Positions 5,437-28,166 of a DNA stretch of 64,000 bases are shown in pieces; positions within the stretch are counted from its first letter, which is position 1; each line of letters starts with the position of its first letter. The notes below the pieces were generated by a model. That model was not told the origin of the DNA and did not search any database. It was given only the letters and a program-made list of their open reading frames with translations. The position numbers and the translations under genes were made by a program. The stretch lies in assembly GCA_020525365.1 (NCBI GenBank), contig JAIZOF010000001.1:402381-466380 (forward strand), in the 5' to 3' direction. The DNA comes from Sulfurovum sp. GTDB lineage: Bacteria > Campylobacterota > Campylobacteria > Campylobacterales > Sulfurovaceae.

Positions 5437-6156
5437 ATGAAATTCAATACAGTATTGGTAATAGTAGTTATTGAAATAATTTTTTTTATCAGTGGGTGTA
5501 GCTATAAATATAAGATAAACAAAATACAACATGATACCAATGTAAGCAAAATACAACATGATACCAATGTAAGCAAAATACAACATGATACCAATGTAAG
5601 CAAAATACAACATGGTATTAAGGTGAGCAAAAAACGACATAGTATTAAAGTGAATAAAATACCATATAATATCAAAGTGTGTCGAAAAGAACTATCATAT
5701 GGTTTAGAGATTAGGAAAGATCAGATTATTGATAGGCTGATTGCATATAAGTCGAAGCGGAAAATAGAGGGATATAGAGATGGTAAAAAAGTTTTTGAAT
5801 CTCGTATATCTTTGGGTAAAAATGCAGATAAAGGGGATAAGATACAAGAAGGTGATTATCGTACACCTGAAGGCAATTATACGATTATTCGTAAAAAATG
5901 TCACCCAAGGCTCTACCGATCATTATTGATTTCTTACCCAGATGCACAAGATATTGTGGAGGCAAAATCTAAAGGAGTTAAACCTGGAGGATATATTACA
6001 ATTCATGGACAGCCCAGATGGAATGCAGATGACAAGTATGATTTTTATACACTTTCGCACGACTGGACACAAGGATGTATAGCAATACCCAATAAAAAAA
6101 TAGTACAGTTATGGGTTGGAATTAGAAATGGTGTACCAATTACAATTTACCCTTGA
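5437..6156 (+). CDS. L,D-transpeptidase (YkuD-fold) lipoprotein with a sequon-bearing tandem repeat
   Basis: A 239-residue envelope lipoprotein. A hydrophobic signal ends in the lipobox ISGC (lipidated Cys21). Residues 29-82 are six 9-residue repeats: three identical KIQHDTNVS units, then three diverged ones. The rest is a YkuD/ErfK catalytic domain with His190 (ITIHGQ) and the nucleophile Cys214 in DWTQGCIAIP, a variant of the SHGC motif seen in the YafK/YbiS-like branch. The family crosslinks peptidoglycan or attaches proteins to it through meso-diaminopimelate. Each intact repeat contains D-T-N-V-S, which fits the bacterial N-glycosylation sequon D/E-X-N-X-S/T (Asn35, 44, 53). GGGAG precedes the ATG. 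Repeat and catalytic domain are seen directly; glycosylation is inference. Confidence 0.85.
   Translation: MKFNTVLVIVVIEIIFFISGCSYKYKINKIQHDTNVSKIQHDTNVSKIQHDTNVSKIQHGIKVSKKRHSIKVNKIPYNIKVCRKELSYGLEIRKDQIIDRLIAYKSKRKIEGYRDGKKVFESRISLGKNADKGDKIQEGDYRTPEGNYTIIRKKCHPRLYRSLLISYPDAQDIVEAKSKGVKPGGYITIHGQPRWNADDKYDFYTLSHDWTQGCIAIPNKKIVQLWVGIRNGVPITIYP
5521..5682 (+). repeat. 27-bp in-frame tandem repeat, six units
   Basis: Units start at 5521, 5548, 5575, 5602, 5629 and 5656. The first three are identical at the nucleotide level, and units 4-6 are progressively diverged. Because 27 is divisible by three, copy-number change by slippage or recombination keeps the reading frame and adds or removes nine residues and one D-T-N-V-S motif per step. 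Confidence 0.95.
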
Positions 6157-6184: not shown

Positions 6185-6226
6185 TATATTATTATGTTAA
6201 ATCTGGTATATTATTATGTTAAATCT
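6185..6226. repeat. 20-nt direct repeat (22-bp period) in a leader
   Basis: TATATTATTATGTTAAATCT occurs at 6185-6204 and again, identically, at 6207-6226, directly before the Shine-Dalgarno of the DUF1566 gene. It looks like a recent tandem duplication and duplicates a possible TATATT-type -10 element. Confidence 0.8.
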
Positions 6227-6240
6227 AGAAGGAGAATAAA

Positions 6241-6741
6241 ATGAAAAAGTATATCGTTTTTCTTTGGAGTTTTTTTGCTATAACATTTGGATTTTCGGGT
6301 GGAGATATGGGAAGAGAAGATATAATAGTCCCAAATTTAGGTGCTATAACACAGATTGAGAAGCCATACTATCCAAAGAAAATCTATATTGATGAAGAGA
6401 CTAATTTAATGTGGCAGGATGCATCTTATACTGATGCAGAGGATGGTGCTTATGCCAATAATTACTCAGTAGGCAAAGTTGGTGTGTTTCAACATGCGGT
6501 GCGTTATTGTCACAACCTTGATTATGCAGGCTACCAAGATTGGCGACTTCCTACTGCAAATGAGCTCATGGCAGTTCATCATCAGATTGGACAGAACTTT
6601 GTTTATTTTAGAAGCAAGGACTTTTGGACATCAACACCAACAACAGCAGGAAAGCATTATGTAGTCTATCCTGCAGATGCTTATAGATACAAAAGAAGCA
6701 AGAAGCAATCAAACTATATCCGCTGTGTGCGCCATACTTAA
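6241..6741 (+). CDS. Exported DUF1566 (Lcl C-terminal-like) domain protein
   Basis: A 166-residue secreted or periplasmic protein with an N-terminal signal peptide (about 1-20). The DUF1566 domain occupies about residues 50-165: it begins at TNLMWQDASYTDA, has the conserved core YAGYQDWRLPTANEL, then FWTSTPTTAGKHYVVY and the terminal NYIRCVRHT. Such domains are common in exported or surface proteins of proteobacteria and have no agreed biochemical role. AGGAG sits at good spacing before the ATG. It is the last of three small accessory genes and is convergent with murB. Confidence 0.75.
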   Translation: MKKYIVFLWSFFAITFGFSGGDMGREDIIVPNLGAITQIEKPYYPKKIYIDEETNLMWQDASYTDAEDGAYANNYSVGKVGVFQHAVRYCHNLDYAGYQDWRLPTANELMAVHHQIGQNFVYFRSKDFWTSTPTTAGKHYVVYPADAYRYKRSKKQSNYIRCVRHT

Positions 6742-20077: not shown

Positions 20078-21442
20078 ATGAAAAATATTGCTGTCATTTT
20101 AGCAGGTGGTATTGGGTCACGTCTTGGCTACAGTAAGCCTAAACAGTTTATAAAAGTAGCTGGAAAAATGATTATAGAGCATACTGTTGAAATATTTCAG
20201 AAATATAATGAAATAGATGAAATTGCTATTGTTTGCCATAAAGATTATATCGATACTGTAGAAAGCATAGTAATCTCAAATCATTTTAATAAAGTAAAAA
20301 AAATACTCAATGGGGGATCTGAGCGCCATGAGTCCTCTCTTGCAGCAATTGATGCATACGACGAAGAGTGTAATTTAATTTTTCATGATGCAGTTAGACC
20401 ACTGGTTAGCAATATGATAATTGGTGATACAGTAAAGGCATTATCTCAGTACAATGCAATAGATGTTGTGGTGCCAGCAACTGATACGATTATTCAAACA
20501 GATGGAGAGTTAATTACAGACATTCCAAACAGAGATGTACTAAGAAGAGGACAAACGCCTCAAGGTTTCAAAAGAAGCATTATTAAAAAAGCATATGATA
20601 TTGCCTTAAAAGATGATCATTTTAAAGCAACAGATGATTGTGGAATTGTTAAGACATATCTACCAAATGAGCCTATATTTTTAGTGAGAGGCGAAGAGTC
20701 GAATATGAAACTCACATATGAAGAGGATCTCTTTTTACTCGATAAATTTTTTCAGCTTAAAAGCATGGAGATTGTTGATAATGACAAACAGGCACTTCAC
20801 CTGCTTGACGGTAAAACTATAGTGGTATTTGGAGGAAGTTATGGTATTGGTAGAGAAATAGTCAAAATAGCCAAACAGTATAATGCAAAAGTATATAGTT
20901 TTAGTCGTAGTGAGACAAAAACGGATATATCAGATATAGAAAATGTAAACAAAGCACTACAAATTGTTGTAGAGGAGTGTGGAAATATTGATTATATTAT
21001 CAATACCGCAGGCGTATTGGACAAAGAACCACTTCTTAATATGAATTATGAAACGATAGAAAAGGCCGTTTCTATTAATTATATGGGTAATATTATTATT
21101 GCCAAAGAGTCTTTTGACTATCTTAAAAAGAGTAAAGGAAAACTACTCTTTTTTACTTCAAGCTCCTATACAAGAGGTAGAGCCATGTATAGCACATACT
21201 CATCACTGAAGGCGGCAACGGTTAATTTTGTACAAGCTATAGCAAGTGAGTGGGGCAATTTTGGAATACAAATAAACTGTATCAATCCAGAACGCACCTT
21301 GACACCCATGAGGATTAAAAGTTTTGGCAAAGAAGACCCTAAAACGCTTTTGAGTGCCAAAGAGGTAGCCATATCATCTCTTAAGACACTTTTGATGGAT
21401 ATTTCAGGGCAAGTTATTGATGTCAAGAAGGGTGCTGAGTGA
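20078..21442 (+). CDS. Bifunctional cytidylyltransferase / SDR reductase, Acs1/Bcs1-like (predicted CDP-ribitol synthesis)
   Basis: A 454-residue fusion. Residues 1-230 are an IspD/TarI-type cytidylyltransferase (VILAGGIGSRLGYSKPKQF, FHDAVRPLVS, DTIIQTDG, RRGQTPQGF). Residues 242-454 are a short-chain dehydrogenase (FGGSYGIGR cofactor loop, NTAG, catalytic Ser in TSSSYTRG, and YSSLK for the YxxxK pair). The same fusion, Bcs1/Acs1 of Haemophilus influenzae, reduces ribulose 5-phosphate to ribitol 5-phosphate and makes CDP-ribitol. Product identity here is inference; other alditol phosphates are possible. A lone IspD is rejected because of the fused SDR and the glycan neighbours. The stop overlaps the GTG of the first LicD gene. 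Confidence 0.85.
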   Translation: MKNIAVILAGGIGSRLGYSKPKQFIKVAGKMIIEHTVEIFQKYNEIDEIAIVCHKDYIDTVESIVISNHFNKVKKILNGGSERHESSLAAIDAYDEECNLIFHDAVRPLVSNMIIGDTVKALSQYNAIDVVVPATDTIIQTDGELITDIPNRDVLRRGQTPQGFKRSIIKKAYDIALKDDHFKATDDCGIVKTYLPNEPIFLVRGEESNMKLTYEEDLFLLDKFFQLKSMEIVDNDKQALHLLDGKTIVVFGGSYGIGREIVKIAKQYNAKVYSFSRSETKTDISDIENVNKALQIVVEECGNIDYIINTAGVLDKEPLLNMNYETIEKAVSINYMGNIIIAKESFDYLKKSKGKLLFFTSSSYTRGRAMYSTYSSLKAATVNFVQAIASEWGNFGIQINCINPERTLTPMRIKSFGKEDPKTLLSAKEVAISSLKTLLMDISGQVIDVKKGAE

Positions 21443-22167
21443 TAAAAAAACTATTGAGACCAGTCAAATATTTTCTGTTTGCAATAGAAGCACTTTTTGT
21501 ATCAAAATATAATAGTATATTTCATAAGAATTTTACATGCAATAAGAACTCTAAAAGATGCGAGTCTAATAGAAAAAGTCCAAATTTTAGATTTGATTTA
21601 TTGGGAAAAAATGCACCTAAATGCTGCGTTACTAACCTATATCATCTTTTAAAAGATATTACTGAATTATTTGATAAACATAATATTGAATACCAACTAT
21701 GTTGTGGGACCCTTTTGGGTGCATTTAGACACAAGGGGTTTATCCCTTGGGATACGGATGTTGATTTGCTGGTACCAGAAAGTAAAAAAAAAGAAATATT
21801 AAATATTTTATCGGATAAATTTAATCGTCAGTATTATGTAGAAGAGGAGAGGGACGATAGTATTGTGGGCAGCTTAATAAAAGTACATATAAGCAAAATA
21901 AACTCTTTACATGTTGATTTGTATACGTATATTCAAAAAAATGATGAGTTCATTTATGCACATAATAGAAAATTTAAAGTAGAAAATGTATACCCCCTTC
22001 AAAAAATAACATTTTATAACCTTAAACTATCTGCCCCTAAAAATATAGAAGAGCAATTGATTGTATTGTATGGGAAAGATTACATGAAATATGCCTATAA
22101 ACAGTGGGCCTTAAATAAACAAAAATTTAAATTAATAAAATTTATGCCTGCAAAAATAAATTTATGA
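21439..22167 (+). CDS. LicD/fukutin-family phosphotransferase (first of two)
   Basis: A 242-residue cytosolic or membrane-peripheral protein. The LicD core is CCGTLLGAFRHKGFIPWDTDVDLLV (about residues 86-112 when read in two parts), with Asp105, Asp107 and Asp109 forming the metal-binding DxDxD. A basic N-terminal region with four Cys (CNKNSKRC and later) precedes it. The family includes LicD, which transfers phosphocholine, and fukutin/FKRP, which transfer ribitol phosphate from CDP-ribitol. Next to a predicted CDP-ribitol synthase, an alditol-phosphate transferase is the better guess. It starts at a GTG overlapping the previous stop (GTGA) and ends overlapping the flippase start (ATGA). Confidence 0.82.
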   Translation: MIKKLLRPVKYFLFAIEALFVSKYNSIFHKNFTCNKNSKRCESNRKSPNFRFDLLGKNAPKCCVTNLYHLLKDITELFDKHNIEYQLCCGTLLGAFRHKGFIPWDTDVDLLVPESKKKEILNILSDKFNRQYYVEEERDDSIVGSLIKVHISKINSLHVDLYTYIQKNDEFIYAHNRKFKVENVYPLQKITFYNLKLSAPKNIEEQLIVLYGKDYMKYAYKQWALNKQKFKLIKFMPAKINL

Positions 22168-23528
22168 AAAAAGAACTATTTAACTCATTTTCATTTACTG
22201 CTCTTTCATCTGGACTATTTTTTGTATTTAACTTCTTTATTGCAAAAATGCTTGGGGCAAATGAGTATGGACAAATAGTCTACTACTTGTCATTTATTAA
22301 TATATTTGCTTTAATGATTAGTTTAAACTATTCGGCATTATATATGGGAAATAGAATAATTGACAATGATAGTAATACATTTTCACTATTTATCTCTTGG
22401 CAAAGCCTCTTTTTTGTTATAGCTTTTATTCCTGCTTTTTTGATATTAAGTTACTTTTTTAGCTCTGTTAGAGAGATTATTGCAATAGCTTTAATTGCAT
22501 ATTTATTAACTGTTGTATCAACCATTGGCTTAGAGTTTAATGCCAAAAAAGAGGTTGCTAAATCTATTTTAATCTCAGTTTTAATTCCAAGAGTTTTACT
22601 TATTTTTATATTTATAAACTTATTCATATTTGGTATTGCCAATTCTCAAAATTATCTATACGTCTATTCAGTTGTTTTATTGCTTGTGGCACTATATTTT
22701 ACCTTACAGCTAAAACCAAAAATATATTTGAAAAAAGAGATACTTAGTAGGGCTTGGAAGTTTTATCTGCTTGGAGTTATTGGATCAAGCTTTACCTATT
22801 TGGCTCAGATTTTACAAAAAAAATATGGCAATTATGAGATACTAGCAACACTTGCAATTGTATTACTTATTTTTGCAGGTTTAAGCTTGGTTGGTACAGT
22901 TTTAGTTAAGTTTGTATTACCAAAAATTCATGAATATTATAGAGAACAAAATATTAAAGCAATAGAAAAACTCTACTCCAATAATACAAAAATAGTATTG
23001 ATGGTCGTAGTACCATTGCTTATATTTTTTTATTTTAATTTAGATTTAGCTACAAAGATGCTAGGTGATGGTTACAGCCATTTGCCTATGATGTTTTCTA
23101 TACTTCTAATAGGCTATACAGCAGATTTGTTAACAGGCATAACAGGTTATCTGCTTAGAGCTACTAAAAATGAGAAGTATGAAATTTATAATGAAATCGT
23201 AAGGTTAGCTGTAGGACTTGGATTAATATATGCATTAAAAGAGAATCAATATGGAGTGGCTATTGCCATAACCATATCTATGCTTATTTATAATATATTA
23301 AAGTTTTTAGAAGTGTACTATCTATTTAAATTTATTCCATTAAATTTAAAAGAGATGACATCTGCCTTGGTTTTGGTAGGCATATTGATTATCCTTTTTT
23401 TTGGTATAAGCAAGATAGATATGATAAATCTAAGGGTTATTTTAAATATAGTTCTTTTAGTGGCAAGTTATACGATAGTTTTTAATTACATAAAAAGAGA
23501 TAAAAATCTTTTAAAAGGGTACAGATAG
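22164..23528 (+). CDS. Wzx-type oligosaccharide flippase
   Basis: A 454-residue integral membrane protein with about 12-14 hydrophobic segments, beginning FNSFSFTALSSGLFFVFNFF and followed by AKMLGANEYGQIVYYLSF, the usual N-terminal pattern of the polysaccharide-transport (PST/MVF-like) superfamily. It should flip an undecaprenyl-diphosphate oligosaccharide across the inner membrane. It sits between two LicD genes with overlapping ends. Campylobacter jejuni instead uses an ABC flippase, PglK, for its N-glycan. The sequence is markedly AT-rich. Confidence 0.85.
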   Translation: MKKELFNSFSFTALSSGLFFVFNFFIAKMLGANEYGQIVYYLSFINIFALMISLNYSALYMGNRIIDNDSNTFSLFISWQSLFFVIAFIPAFLILSYFFSSVREIIAIALIAYLLTVVSTIGLEFNAKKEVAKSILISVLIPRVLLIFIFINLFIFGIANSQNYLYVYSVVLLLVALYFTLQLKPKIYLKKEILSRAWKFYLLGVIGSSFTYLAQILQKKYGNYEILATLAIVLLIFAGLSLVGTVLVKFVLPKIHEYYREQNIKAIEKLYSNNTKIVLMVVVPLLIFFYFNLDLATKMLGDGYSHLPMMFSILLIGYTADLLTGITGYLLRATKNEKYEIYNEIVRLAVGLGLIYALKENQYGVAIAITISMLIYNILKFLEVYYLFKFIPLNLKEMTSALVLVGILIILFFGISKIDMINLRVILNIVLLVASYTIVFNYIKRDKNLLKGYR

Positions 23529-24241
23529 TGTTAAGTAGAGTTAAATATTTTTTAGAAAAAAATAGATTTATAGCAACCATTGCAAGGTTTGCATATAGAA
23601 GAACAATTTTAAAATACAAACATTACAGACAAAATAGAAACTTTTTAAAAAATGCCAAAGAGGCATTATTGCAAATTAGTTTTGTATTTGATGAATTAAA
23701 AAATGATTATTGGCTGGAGTTTGGAACACTATTAGGGGCAATTAGAGAAAAAGGTTTTATTTCCCATGATATAGATATAGATCTAGGCTTATGGTTAAAA
23801 GATTACAACCCTAATCATGATTTAGTTTTTAAAAAATATGGCTTTAAAAGGGTTAGAAAAATAGAAATAGATAACAGGAAATATGGTTTAGAGGAAACAT
23901 ATATCTATAACGGCATAACGATAGATCTATTTTATTTTAGACGAGAGAATGATATTCTTATTTCTCATAATTTTATTAATGAAAATGGTAAAAGTTGGGA
24001 AAAAACTATTCATGATAGAGGAGGATTAATAGTAAGAGAGAAATATATACCATACTCAAAACTTATAAAAATAAACTTCTTAGATATTTCTACTTATATC
24101 CCAAAAGATTATGACATACATTTAAAAGCAATTTATGGCAATACCTATATGATACCAAACCCAAAATGGAATCCATATACTATGGAAAAAAATGTAAAAA
24201 TACTAGAAGATAAAATTGGTAAAGTATATAATTATAACTAG
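23528..24241 (+). CDS. LicD/fukutin-family phosphotransferase (second of two)
   Basis: A 237-residue protein whose core YWLEFGTLLGAIREKGFIS is followed by Asp81-I-Asp83-I-Asp85, then LGLWLKDYN, a second conserved TIDLFYFRRE patch (about residues 137-146) and a C-terminal YIPKDYDIHLKAIYGNTYMIP segment. From memory this layout resembles the catalytic domain of mammalian fukutin more closely than LicD of Haemophilus. I infer alditol-phosphate transfer to the lipid-linked glycan. The GTG start overlaps the flippase stop by one base. It is only distantly similar to the first LicD protein, so two successive transfers with different acceptors are plausible. Confidence 0.8.
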   Translation: MLSRVKYFLEKNRFIATIARFAYRRTILKYKHYRQNRNFLKNAKEALLQISFVFDELKNDYWLEFGTLLGAIREKGFISHDIDIDLGLWLKDYNPNHDLVFKKYGFKRVRKIEIDNRKYGLEETYIYNGITIDLFYFRRENDILISHNFINENGKSWEKTIHDRGGLIVREKYIPYSKLIKINFLDISTYIPKDYDIHLKAIYGNTYMIPNPKWNPYTMEKNVKILEDKIGKVYNYN

Positions 24242-26051: not shown

Positions 26052-28166
26052 ATGGAAAACAAACAAGTATTTGGAACAAGAGAAGCACTTCTTTTGATGA
26101 TGATGGCATATATTTTTAGTTTTGCTATACGTATGATATGGGTATATCAATTTCATGGTAACCCCAATTTTTTCTGGAATGAGCAGTTGATGATTAATAC
26201 CAATGATGGGTACTGCTTTGCCTCTGGTGTACAAAAAGTACTCTTTGATATGCATGCAGATAATCCTCGCATCCCTTCTGTGTGGTCTTATGGAGTGGTG
26301 GCATTAACTGTATTGCTTACTAAACTAACGCCATTTACCATGGAAACGATTATACTTTATATGCCTGCAATTATTTCAAGTTTGGTTGTGGTGCCCATTA
26401 TACTTATTACGAGACTCTACAAAGAGTCAGCATGGGGATTTTTTGCAGCATTGGTGGGTTCCATTACGTGGAGTTACTATAACCGTACGATGATAGGGTA
26501 TTATGATACTGATATGTTTTCGGCAATGGCACCGATGTTTATTCTATACTTCCTAATGAAGAGTACTGTAGATTTTAGTTTAAAATCAGCACTGTATGCG
26601 GCATTAGCAATTGCAATATATCCATTTCTCTATAATTCGGGAGCCTCTATTGTCTATGCAATGGGTATAATATATGCACTATATCTCATTGTGTATCATC
26701 GCAATCAAGAGACTACTTATTACTCAATCATACTTGTTTTTCTAGCATTGATTCCCTTTCCTTTTGATGATCCATTTTCCTATATTTTAAAAATTGCTGT
26801 ACTTGTGATACTTTATATATTTTTGTATCAGAGAAAGATATTGGCACAAAAACAGGCAATGGTTATGGCAGGCACACTGTTTATACTTTTTATGTATTAT
26901 GGAAATGTTTTTGGCTTGATTCTTTCAAAGATTGTTTTTTATACAACAACTGGGACTACAGGTAAAGGTTTACACTTCTACTCGGTATCTCAGACAATCC
27001 GAGAAGCAGGAAAGATTCCTTTTGAAATATTTGCAAATCGTATTTCGGGCTCTATACCGAGTTTAATAGTGGCGATAGCAGGATATATTATGCTTGTGAT
27101 ACGTTATCGACCCTTTTTGTTGGCATTACCATTGGTGGCAATAGGCGCCTTTGCAATATGGGGAGGGTTGCGGTTTACTGTATATGCTGTACCCATTGCT
27201 GCAATATCTTCAGTCTATCTCTCTCATTTTCTAATTAGTAAAATATCTAAGAGAAGAGGCTCCTATATCTTTGGTATGATGATGCTAGTAGTAGCAATAC
27301 TCTCTCCAAACATTAAACATATTATTGGGTATAGGGTGCCAACGGTTATGAAGAGTATAGAGGTGCGGGATCTTGATAGGCTTAAGCAGATCTCTTCTTC
27401 AAAGGATTATACGATTGCATGGTGGGACTATGGATATCCTATTTGGTTTTATTCTAATACGAATACCATTATTGATGGCGCTAAACATCAAAATGATAAC
27501 TTTATTGTTTCTAAGATTATGCAGACAGACTCTCCTGAGCTTGCAGCCAATTTAAGCCGGTTAGCAGTAGAGACTTATGTCTCTTCTGGTTATAAAAATA
27601 TTACTGATACACTTTTTAAAAATGGTCAAAAAGATCAGATAGATCCAAATCTACTTTTGACAGAACTTGAGAGTCGTTCATATAAGCTTCCTAAGAAGAG
27701 TAGAGAAGTTTATTTATATTTTCCCTCCAAAATGTATAGTATCTTTCCGGTAGTAGCACGGTTTGGAAATATTGACCTAACAACTGGGGAGCCTGAGCGA
27801 AATATTGCATTTTATCCTACACGGAAAATAAAGAGCAAAAAAGATTTTTTAAAATTTTCAAATGGTATTGTTTTTGATATTTCTAGGGGTGAACTAATTC
27901 TCAGAAAGAGACGAGTGCCTCTAAAGTATTTTGTAACTACAGGGTTTTCCAATGATGGAAAGCAGCGGACTCGTGCACAGATGTATCATTCTGATGGTAG
28001 ATATGCAGTCATCTATATGCAAAGTTATGGACAGTTCATTGTAATGGATGCAGAGACATTTAACTCTATGTATGTGCAGATGTCTATTTTAGGAAAATAT
28101 GACAAAACACTTTTTGAATTGGTTGTCTCTTCTCCATATTCGAAGATATATCGCGTAAAAAGATAA
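26052..28166 (+). CDS. pglB: Oligosaccharyltransferase PglB (STT3 family)
   Basis: A 704-residue membrane enzyme transferring lipid-linked oligosaccharide to Asn of periplasmic proteins. About 13 N-terminal membrane helices carry Asp52 (NTNDGY), the D152-T-D154 motif in GYYDTDMF, and the external-loop SVSQTIREAG with its catalytic-site Glu. The FANRISGS segment holds the Arg that in C. jejuni PglB reads the acidic -2 residue of the sequon. The soluble domain has W457-W-D-Y-G461 and the MI motif M561-Y-S-I564-F-P-V-V568. All key residues of the C. jejuni enzyme appear retained, so a D/E-X-N-X-S/T specificity is expected. It ends 3 bp from a convergent WecA-like gene. Confidence 0.96.
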   Translation: MENKQVFGTREALLLMMMAYIFSFAIRMIWVYQFHGNPNFFWNEQLMINTNDGYCFASGVQKVLFDMHADNPRIPSVWSYGVVALTVLLTKLTPFTMETIILYMPAIISSLVVVPIILITRLYKESAWGFFAALVGSITWSYYNRTMIGYYDTDMFSAMAPMFILYFLMKSTVDFSLKSALYAALAIAIYPFLYNSGASIVYAMGIIYALYLIVYHRNQETTYYSIILVFLALIPFPFDDPFSYILKIAVLVILYIFLYQRKILAQKQAMVMAGTLFILFMYYGNVFGLILSKIVFYTTTGTTGKGLHFYSVSQTIREAGKIPFEIFANRISGSIPSLIVAIAGYIMLVIRYRPFLLALPLVAIGAFAIWGGLRFTVYAVPIAAISSVYLSHFLISKISKRRGSYIFGMMMLVVAILSPNIKHIIGYRVPTVMKSIEVRDLDRLKQISSSKDYTIAWWDYGYPIWFYSNTNTIIDGAKHQNDNFIVSKIMQTDSPELAANLSRLAVETYVSSGYKNITDTLFKNGQKDQIDPNLLLTELESRSYKLPKKSREVYLYFPSKMYSIFPVVARFGNIDLTTGEPERNIAFYPTRKIKSKKDFLKFSNGIVFDISRGELILRKRRVPLKYFVTTGFSNDGKQRTRAQMYHSDGRYAVIYMQSYGQFIVMDAETFNSMYVQMSILGKYDKTLFELVVSSPYSKIYRVKR

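Follow-up and report, generated by a model that had tools for sequence, protein, structure and literature searches.

The locus raises the question whether a short tandem repeat, which places three copies of an N-glycosylation sequon on the tether of a lipoprotein, belongs to a protein that is glycosylated by the oligosaccharyltransferase PglB and, if so, whether the repeat evolved as a glycosylation tag. In the window analyzed here (the whole stretch of 64,000 nucleotides of Sulfurovum sp. DNA, from a genome of 1.47 Mb), the sequence makes this lipoprotein a likely candidate for glycosylation by PglB, and the case for an evolved tag is weak. The features of the lipoprotein gene on which the argument rests are the following.

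5437 to 6156, plus strand: gene for a YkuD-family (L,D-transpeptidase-like) lipoprotein of 239 aa; open reading frame with RBS; Pfam PF03734, E=1.2e-14
5497 to 5499, plus strand: lipobox cysteine Cys21 (ISGC-S), read from the sequence; the lipobox is common to the orthologs
5521-5547, 5548-5574 and 5575-5601, plus strand: units 1 to 3 of the array, identical, KIQHDTNVS three times (TRF and sequence)
5539-5541, 5566-5568 and 5593-5595, plus strand: sequon asparagines Asn35, Asn44 and Asn53, each read in D-T-N-V-S
5602 to 5628, plus strand: unit 4, KIQHGIKVS, no sequon; 22 of 27 bases as in unit 1
5629-5655, plus strand: unit 5, KKRHSIKVN; 17 of 27 bases as in unit 1; matches the ortholog tether
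5656-5682, plus strand: unit 6, KIPYNIKVC; 19 of 27 bases as in unit 1; matches the ortholog tether
5734 to 6147, plus strand: YkuD catalytic domain, with Cys214 at 6076-6078 in a TQGC motif (Pfam; weak Csd6 match)

The ATG of the gene is preceded by AGGGAG (the RBS), and the product is laid out as a signal peptide, the lipobox ISGC with Cys21, the repeat tether and the YkuD domain (residues 100-237; 55.5 bits against a gathering score of 23.4). The signal peptide and the lipobox, common to the orthologs, predict export to the periplasm; an AlphaFold model built from the single sequence of the lipoprotein has a mean pLDDT of 33.8, too low to inform on the flexibility of the tether. The protein shares a YkuD domain with a catalytic Cys motif with the Csd6-type and ErfK-type enzymes but differs from the former in that its closest match among solved structures, Helicobacter pylori Csd6 (4xzz), is weak (E=1.8e-4), and its score against the NCBI DpaA/LdtF model falls far below the cut-off of that model. 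Because these matches are too weak to decide the activity, the assignment made from sequence is to the YkuD family, and 'L,D-transpeptidase' is a family name only, under which transpeptidase, carboxypeptidase and amidase are undistinguished. Relatives of the lipoprotein are present in most genomes of the Sulfurovum-like family (a set of 175 species). Many of these relatives (loci L007-L034 and other orthologs) have a second YkuD lipoprotein gene approximately 1 kb away; in this genome, no such second gene adjoins 5437-6156. Downstream, a perfect 22-bp tandem duplication (6185-6226) lies directly upstream of the RBS of an Lcl_C-domain gene at 6241.

The array comprises six K/H-rich 27-bp units, all in frame and none with an indel; TRF assigns it a score of 194 at period 27, and the periodicity is perfect over 95 bp (5520-5614). 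The initial annotation had placed the array at 5521-5682 with the peptide KIQHDTNVS, and both proved exact on re-reading; its further description, namely three identical 27-bp units in frame, each an exact fit to D/E-x-N-x-S/T and located between the lipidated Cys21 and the catalytic domain, likewise held. The motif (X not Pro) is matched exactly at Asn35, Asn44 and Asn53, which lie 14, 23 and 32 residues past Cys21, and at Asn147 (EGNYT), within the catalytic domain. Judging from the sequence comparison, the frame of the array is real coding sequence because 69 orthologs share the downstream domain, nearly all with the same start and lipobox site, and the units contain no indel. A dispersed DNA element was also considered and rejected, because a search for the unit 27-mer, allowing up to two mismatches, across this genome and 77 further genomes from the genus matched nothing outside this locus.

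The origin of the array was examined by comparison of the N-termini of the 69 orthologs, with one genome per species. The tether of the orthologs follows the consensus xPTYxGKxD-KTPYxxxxC, and MAFFT aligns units 5-6 (KKRHSIKVN-KIPYNIKVC) onto it. Given that these two units align to the conserved ortholog tether, units 1-4 are best described, on this alignment, as a 36-residue insertion that, of the species compared, only this one has. In the orthologs with a parsable landmark, 9-16 residues separate the lipidated Cys from the conserved xPY, versus 53 residues here, the tether length being unreliable in 6 of the 69 orthologs, where xPY is absent or early (four given as 40, two as 3) and all of which are without a sequon. 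No tether sequon was found in any of the 69 orthologs. Thus, the three diverged units, which had initially been described as having lost the sequon, do not appear to have done so: the 69 sequon-free short tethers point instead to a gain in units 1-3, and units 4-6 retain I-K-V where units 1-3 read T-N-V. Given the short tether of the orthologs, which lacks the sequon, and the match of units 5-6 to this tether, the simplest history would be that the common precursor of units 1-3 gained the sequon and afterwards went through two duplications. Under this scenario, a stretch of 27 bp in the short ancestral tether would have been duplicated by replication slippage or unequal recombination; in one copy, H-G/S-I-K-V would have changed to H-D-T-N-V, creating the D-x-N-x-S sequon; and this copy would have expanded to three identical units, an order suggested by the divergence of the units together with the orthologs. 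The lengthening of the tether may itself be neutral.

The oligosaccharyltransferase that could recognize these sequons is encoded in the same window, 20 kb from the lipoprotein gene.

26052 to 28166, plus strand: pglB, oligosaccharyltransferase of 704 aa (Campylobacter lari PglB 5ogl, E=8.4e-116; Pfam; NF050801)

The encoded protein aligns end to end with C. lari PglB, contains the Pfam domains STT3, STT3-PglB_core and STT3_PglB_C and, in the alignment to 5ogl, conserves WWDYG, TIxE, MxxI and the arginine R330, the counterpart of C. lari R331; on this evidence, we identify it as a full-length PglB with the known sequon-recognition residues. In C. lari PglB, a salt bridge from R331 to the -2 Asp of the sequon has been proposed, and R331 alone does not enforce the -2 acid rule (PMC4894442). 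The PglB model is matched in 79 of the 90 good-quality genomes of the family, and the PglB of Sulfurovum lithotrophicum is reported among the characterized oligosaccharyltransferases of vent organisms in the work of Mills et al. (2016), as cited in PMC6025236. The system resembles those of C. jejuni and C. lari in the full-length PglB homolog with its recognition residues and in the enrichment of D-x-N-x-S/T in exported proteins (see below), but differs from them in that pglB lies among LPS-core and LicD genes, with no Campylobacter-type pgl operon, and in that the protein, although it matches NF050801 (ProtGlycPglB) with E=1.4e-141, scores under the cut-off of this NCBI model. The genes directly upstream of pglB (20078-24241) include an IspD-SDR fusion and two LicD-family genes, along with two glycosyltransferases; an alditol-phosphate or a phosphocholine-like group may therefore be present on the N-glycan or the LPS.

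If PglB is active on exported proteins of this organism, its sequon might leave a trace in the proteome. The proteome was represented by 1295 genes rebuilt with a simple codon-usage gene finder, with export called by rules, so the following counts are approximate. With the array lipoprotein left out, D-x-N-x-S/T occurs 104 times in exported proteins versus 27.4 in shuffled sequences (3.79x) and 70 times versus 67.8 in cytosolic proteins (1.03x). Asp at the -2 position of N-x-S/T is strongly overrepresented in exported proteins (odds ratio 3.12, p=5e-17) and Glu is not (1.01); the Asp excess is absent from cytosolic proteins, permuted control motifs in exported proteins remain at 0.46-1.06x, and at +2 Ser is less enriched than Thr. 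In the lipoproteins, a small and noisier set, the sequon reaches 3.57x versus up to 2.26x for control motifs. The exported proteins of Escherichia coli K-12, which to our knowledge lacks PglB, show 0.83x for D-x-N-x-S/T (400 kb). In one draft assembly of the family (G024; loci L151-L210), however, STT3/PglB was looked for and not found, and the exported proteins still show a 2.82x excess, with Glu at -2 enriched as well; because of this genome, the excess cannot be firmly attributed to PglB. Possibly, G024 lost pglB recently or has an assembly gap; otherwise, the excess has another cause.

Sequons also appear to be concentrated near the lipid anchor. Among the remaining lipoproteins of the genome, 11 sequons fall in the 2000 aa made up by the 50 residues nearest the lipidated Cys, versus 30 in the 12566 aa beyond (5.5 versus 2.4 per 1000 aa), a comparison chosen post hoc with the sequon list already known; this higher density suggests that the lipoprotein tether is a usual place for sequons in this genome. 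Several other proteins also stand out. Two large exported proteins, C1:367359 (3202 aa) and C1:773978 (1122 aa), contain 26 and 12 D/E-x-N-x-S/T sequons, respectively, and are candidates for heavy N-glycosylation; C1:1192031 and C1:1196470 are a near-identical pair of lipoproteins with four sequons each and C-terminal NNRE repeats; and C1:1415148-1440427 encodes a cluster of proteins with high-copy 330-336 bp repeats (about 110 aa), some of which contain sequons.

Taken together, these observations favor a tether that was expanded in frame, recently and in this species only, in which a sequon was gained and at least one site is glycosylated by the PglB of the window, a joint reading to which we assign a probability of roughly 0.6. 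The active site of PglB faces the periplasm at the membrane; the exported, lipidated protein would present its three sequons on a hydrophilic tether near the membrane, where PglB works, and at least one of Asn35, Asn44 and Asn53 would most likely be glycosylated. The initial annotation as a whole is upheld in part, and the N-glycosylation that it proposed is plausible: the exact sequons, the tether site, the presence of PglB in the window and the excess in exported proteins speak for it, and the excess in G024, where no PglB was found, speaks against it.

Among the alternatives, a neutral expansion of the spacer survives best. Under this explanation, the array is one of many slippage events, its sequon is a chance product, and the sites either bear no glycan or have no relevance. 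Short in-frame tandem repeats are indeed found in 32 genes of this genome, 15 of which encode exported proteins. Random 9-mers bear a sequon once repeated in 1.4% of the cases when drawn from exported proteins and in 4% when drawn from lipoprotein tethers, and a shuffled array unit does so in 3.6%. With the three identical copies counted as one event, 0.2-0.6 sequon arrays are expected by chance over the 15 repeat-bearing exported proteins, so that the array, which as a DNA repeat is certainly far beyond chance, is not clearly beyond chance as a sequon-bearing repeat. Moreover, the differences between units are spread over all codon positions, and there is thus no sign of purifying selection on the units. 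Conversely, the sequon is of the preferred form, with Asp at -2, and the array is placed where other lipoproteins of the genome carry sequons too. We consider the neutral explanation a tentative possibility.

Alternatively, the units could serve mainly as a basic or hydrophilic spacer, extending how far the enzyme can stretch from the membrane to the peptidoglycan, with glycosylation being incidental. The K/H-rich composition of the units and the extension from the short spacing of the orthologs to 53 residues are in line with this proposal, which seems unlikely as stated but is compatible with the preferred reading of a glycosylated, expanded tether.

The initial annotation had gone further and suggested an expandable tag of variable copy number. 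In a selected form of this proposal, the number of repeats would tune the load of PglB glycan on the tether of a cell-wall enzyme. The array is the densest sequon cluster of the genome (3 within 23 residues) and its only short tandem repeat with sequons, and the identical copies with their perfect periodicity would ease slippage. However, the array is absent from all 69 orthologs examined, at one genome per species, and falls within the chance expectation for a repeat-rich genome, which makes a selected tag very improbable. Finally, a true start codon downstream, which would leave the array untranslated, is hardly credible and was rejected: the fast divergence of the array region is all that speaks for it, and the RBS, ATG and lipobox lie ahead of the array and agree with the start and lipobox of the orthologs.

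Glycoengineering routinely uses PglB sequons in tandem. In particular, C. jejuni PglB accepts 4xDQNAT tandem tags fused to an exported carrier protein, and the glycosylated products form a ladder (PMC10018396). The Sulfurovum array, which is probably a natural analogue of such tags, shares with them the head-to-tail arrangement of D-x-N-x-S/T sequons at one end of an exported protein (PMC10018396, PMC8728485); unlike the engineered tags, which are modified by PglB, it is natural and a predicted acceptor, with a 9-residue spacing, Ser at +2 and a position on the N-terminal tether of a lipoprotein. The Ehrlichia proteins gp36 and gp47 are tandem-repeat proteins described as glycoproteins (PMC3533933). 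They resemble the array in 27-bp (9-residue) tandem repeats, the copy number of which varies in Ehrlichia, but the proteins are unrelated and glycosylation of the repeats there is predicted to be O-linked. Our searches of the openly available literature turned up no description of PglB sequons arrayed in tandem in nature.

If its sites are occupied, the lipoprotein would be a natural example of tandem sequons and would show that sequons can be multiplied by repeat expansion. Beyond this gene, the strong excess of D-x-N-x-S/T in exported proteins is as expected if this organism uses N-glycosylation broadly, and it provides many candidate acceptors.
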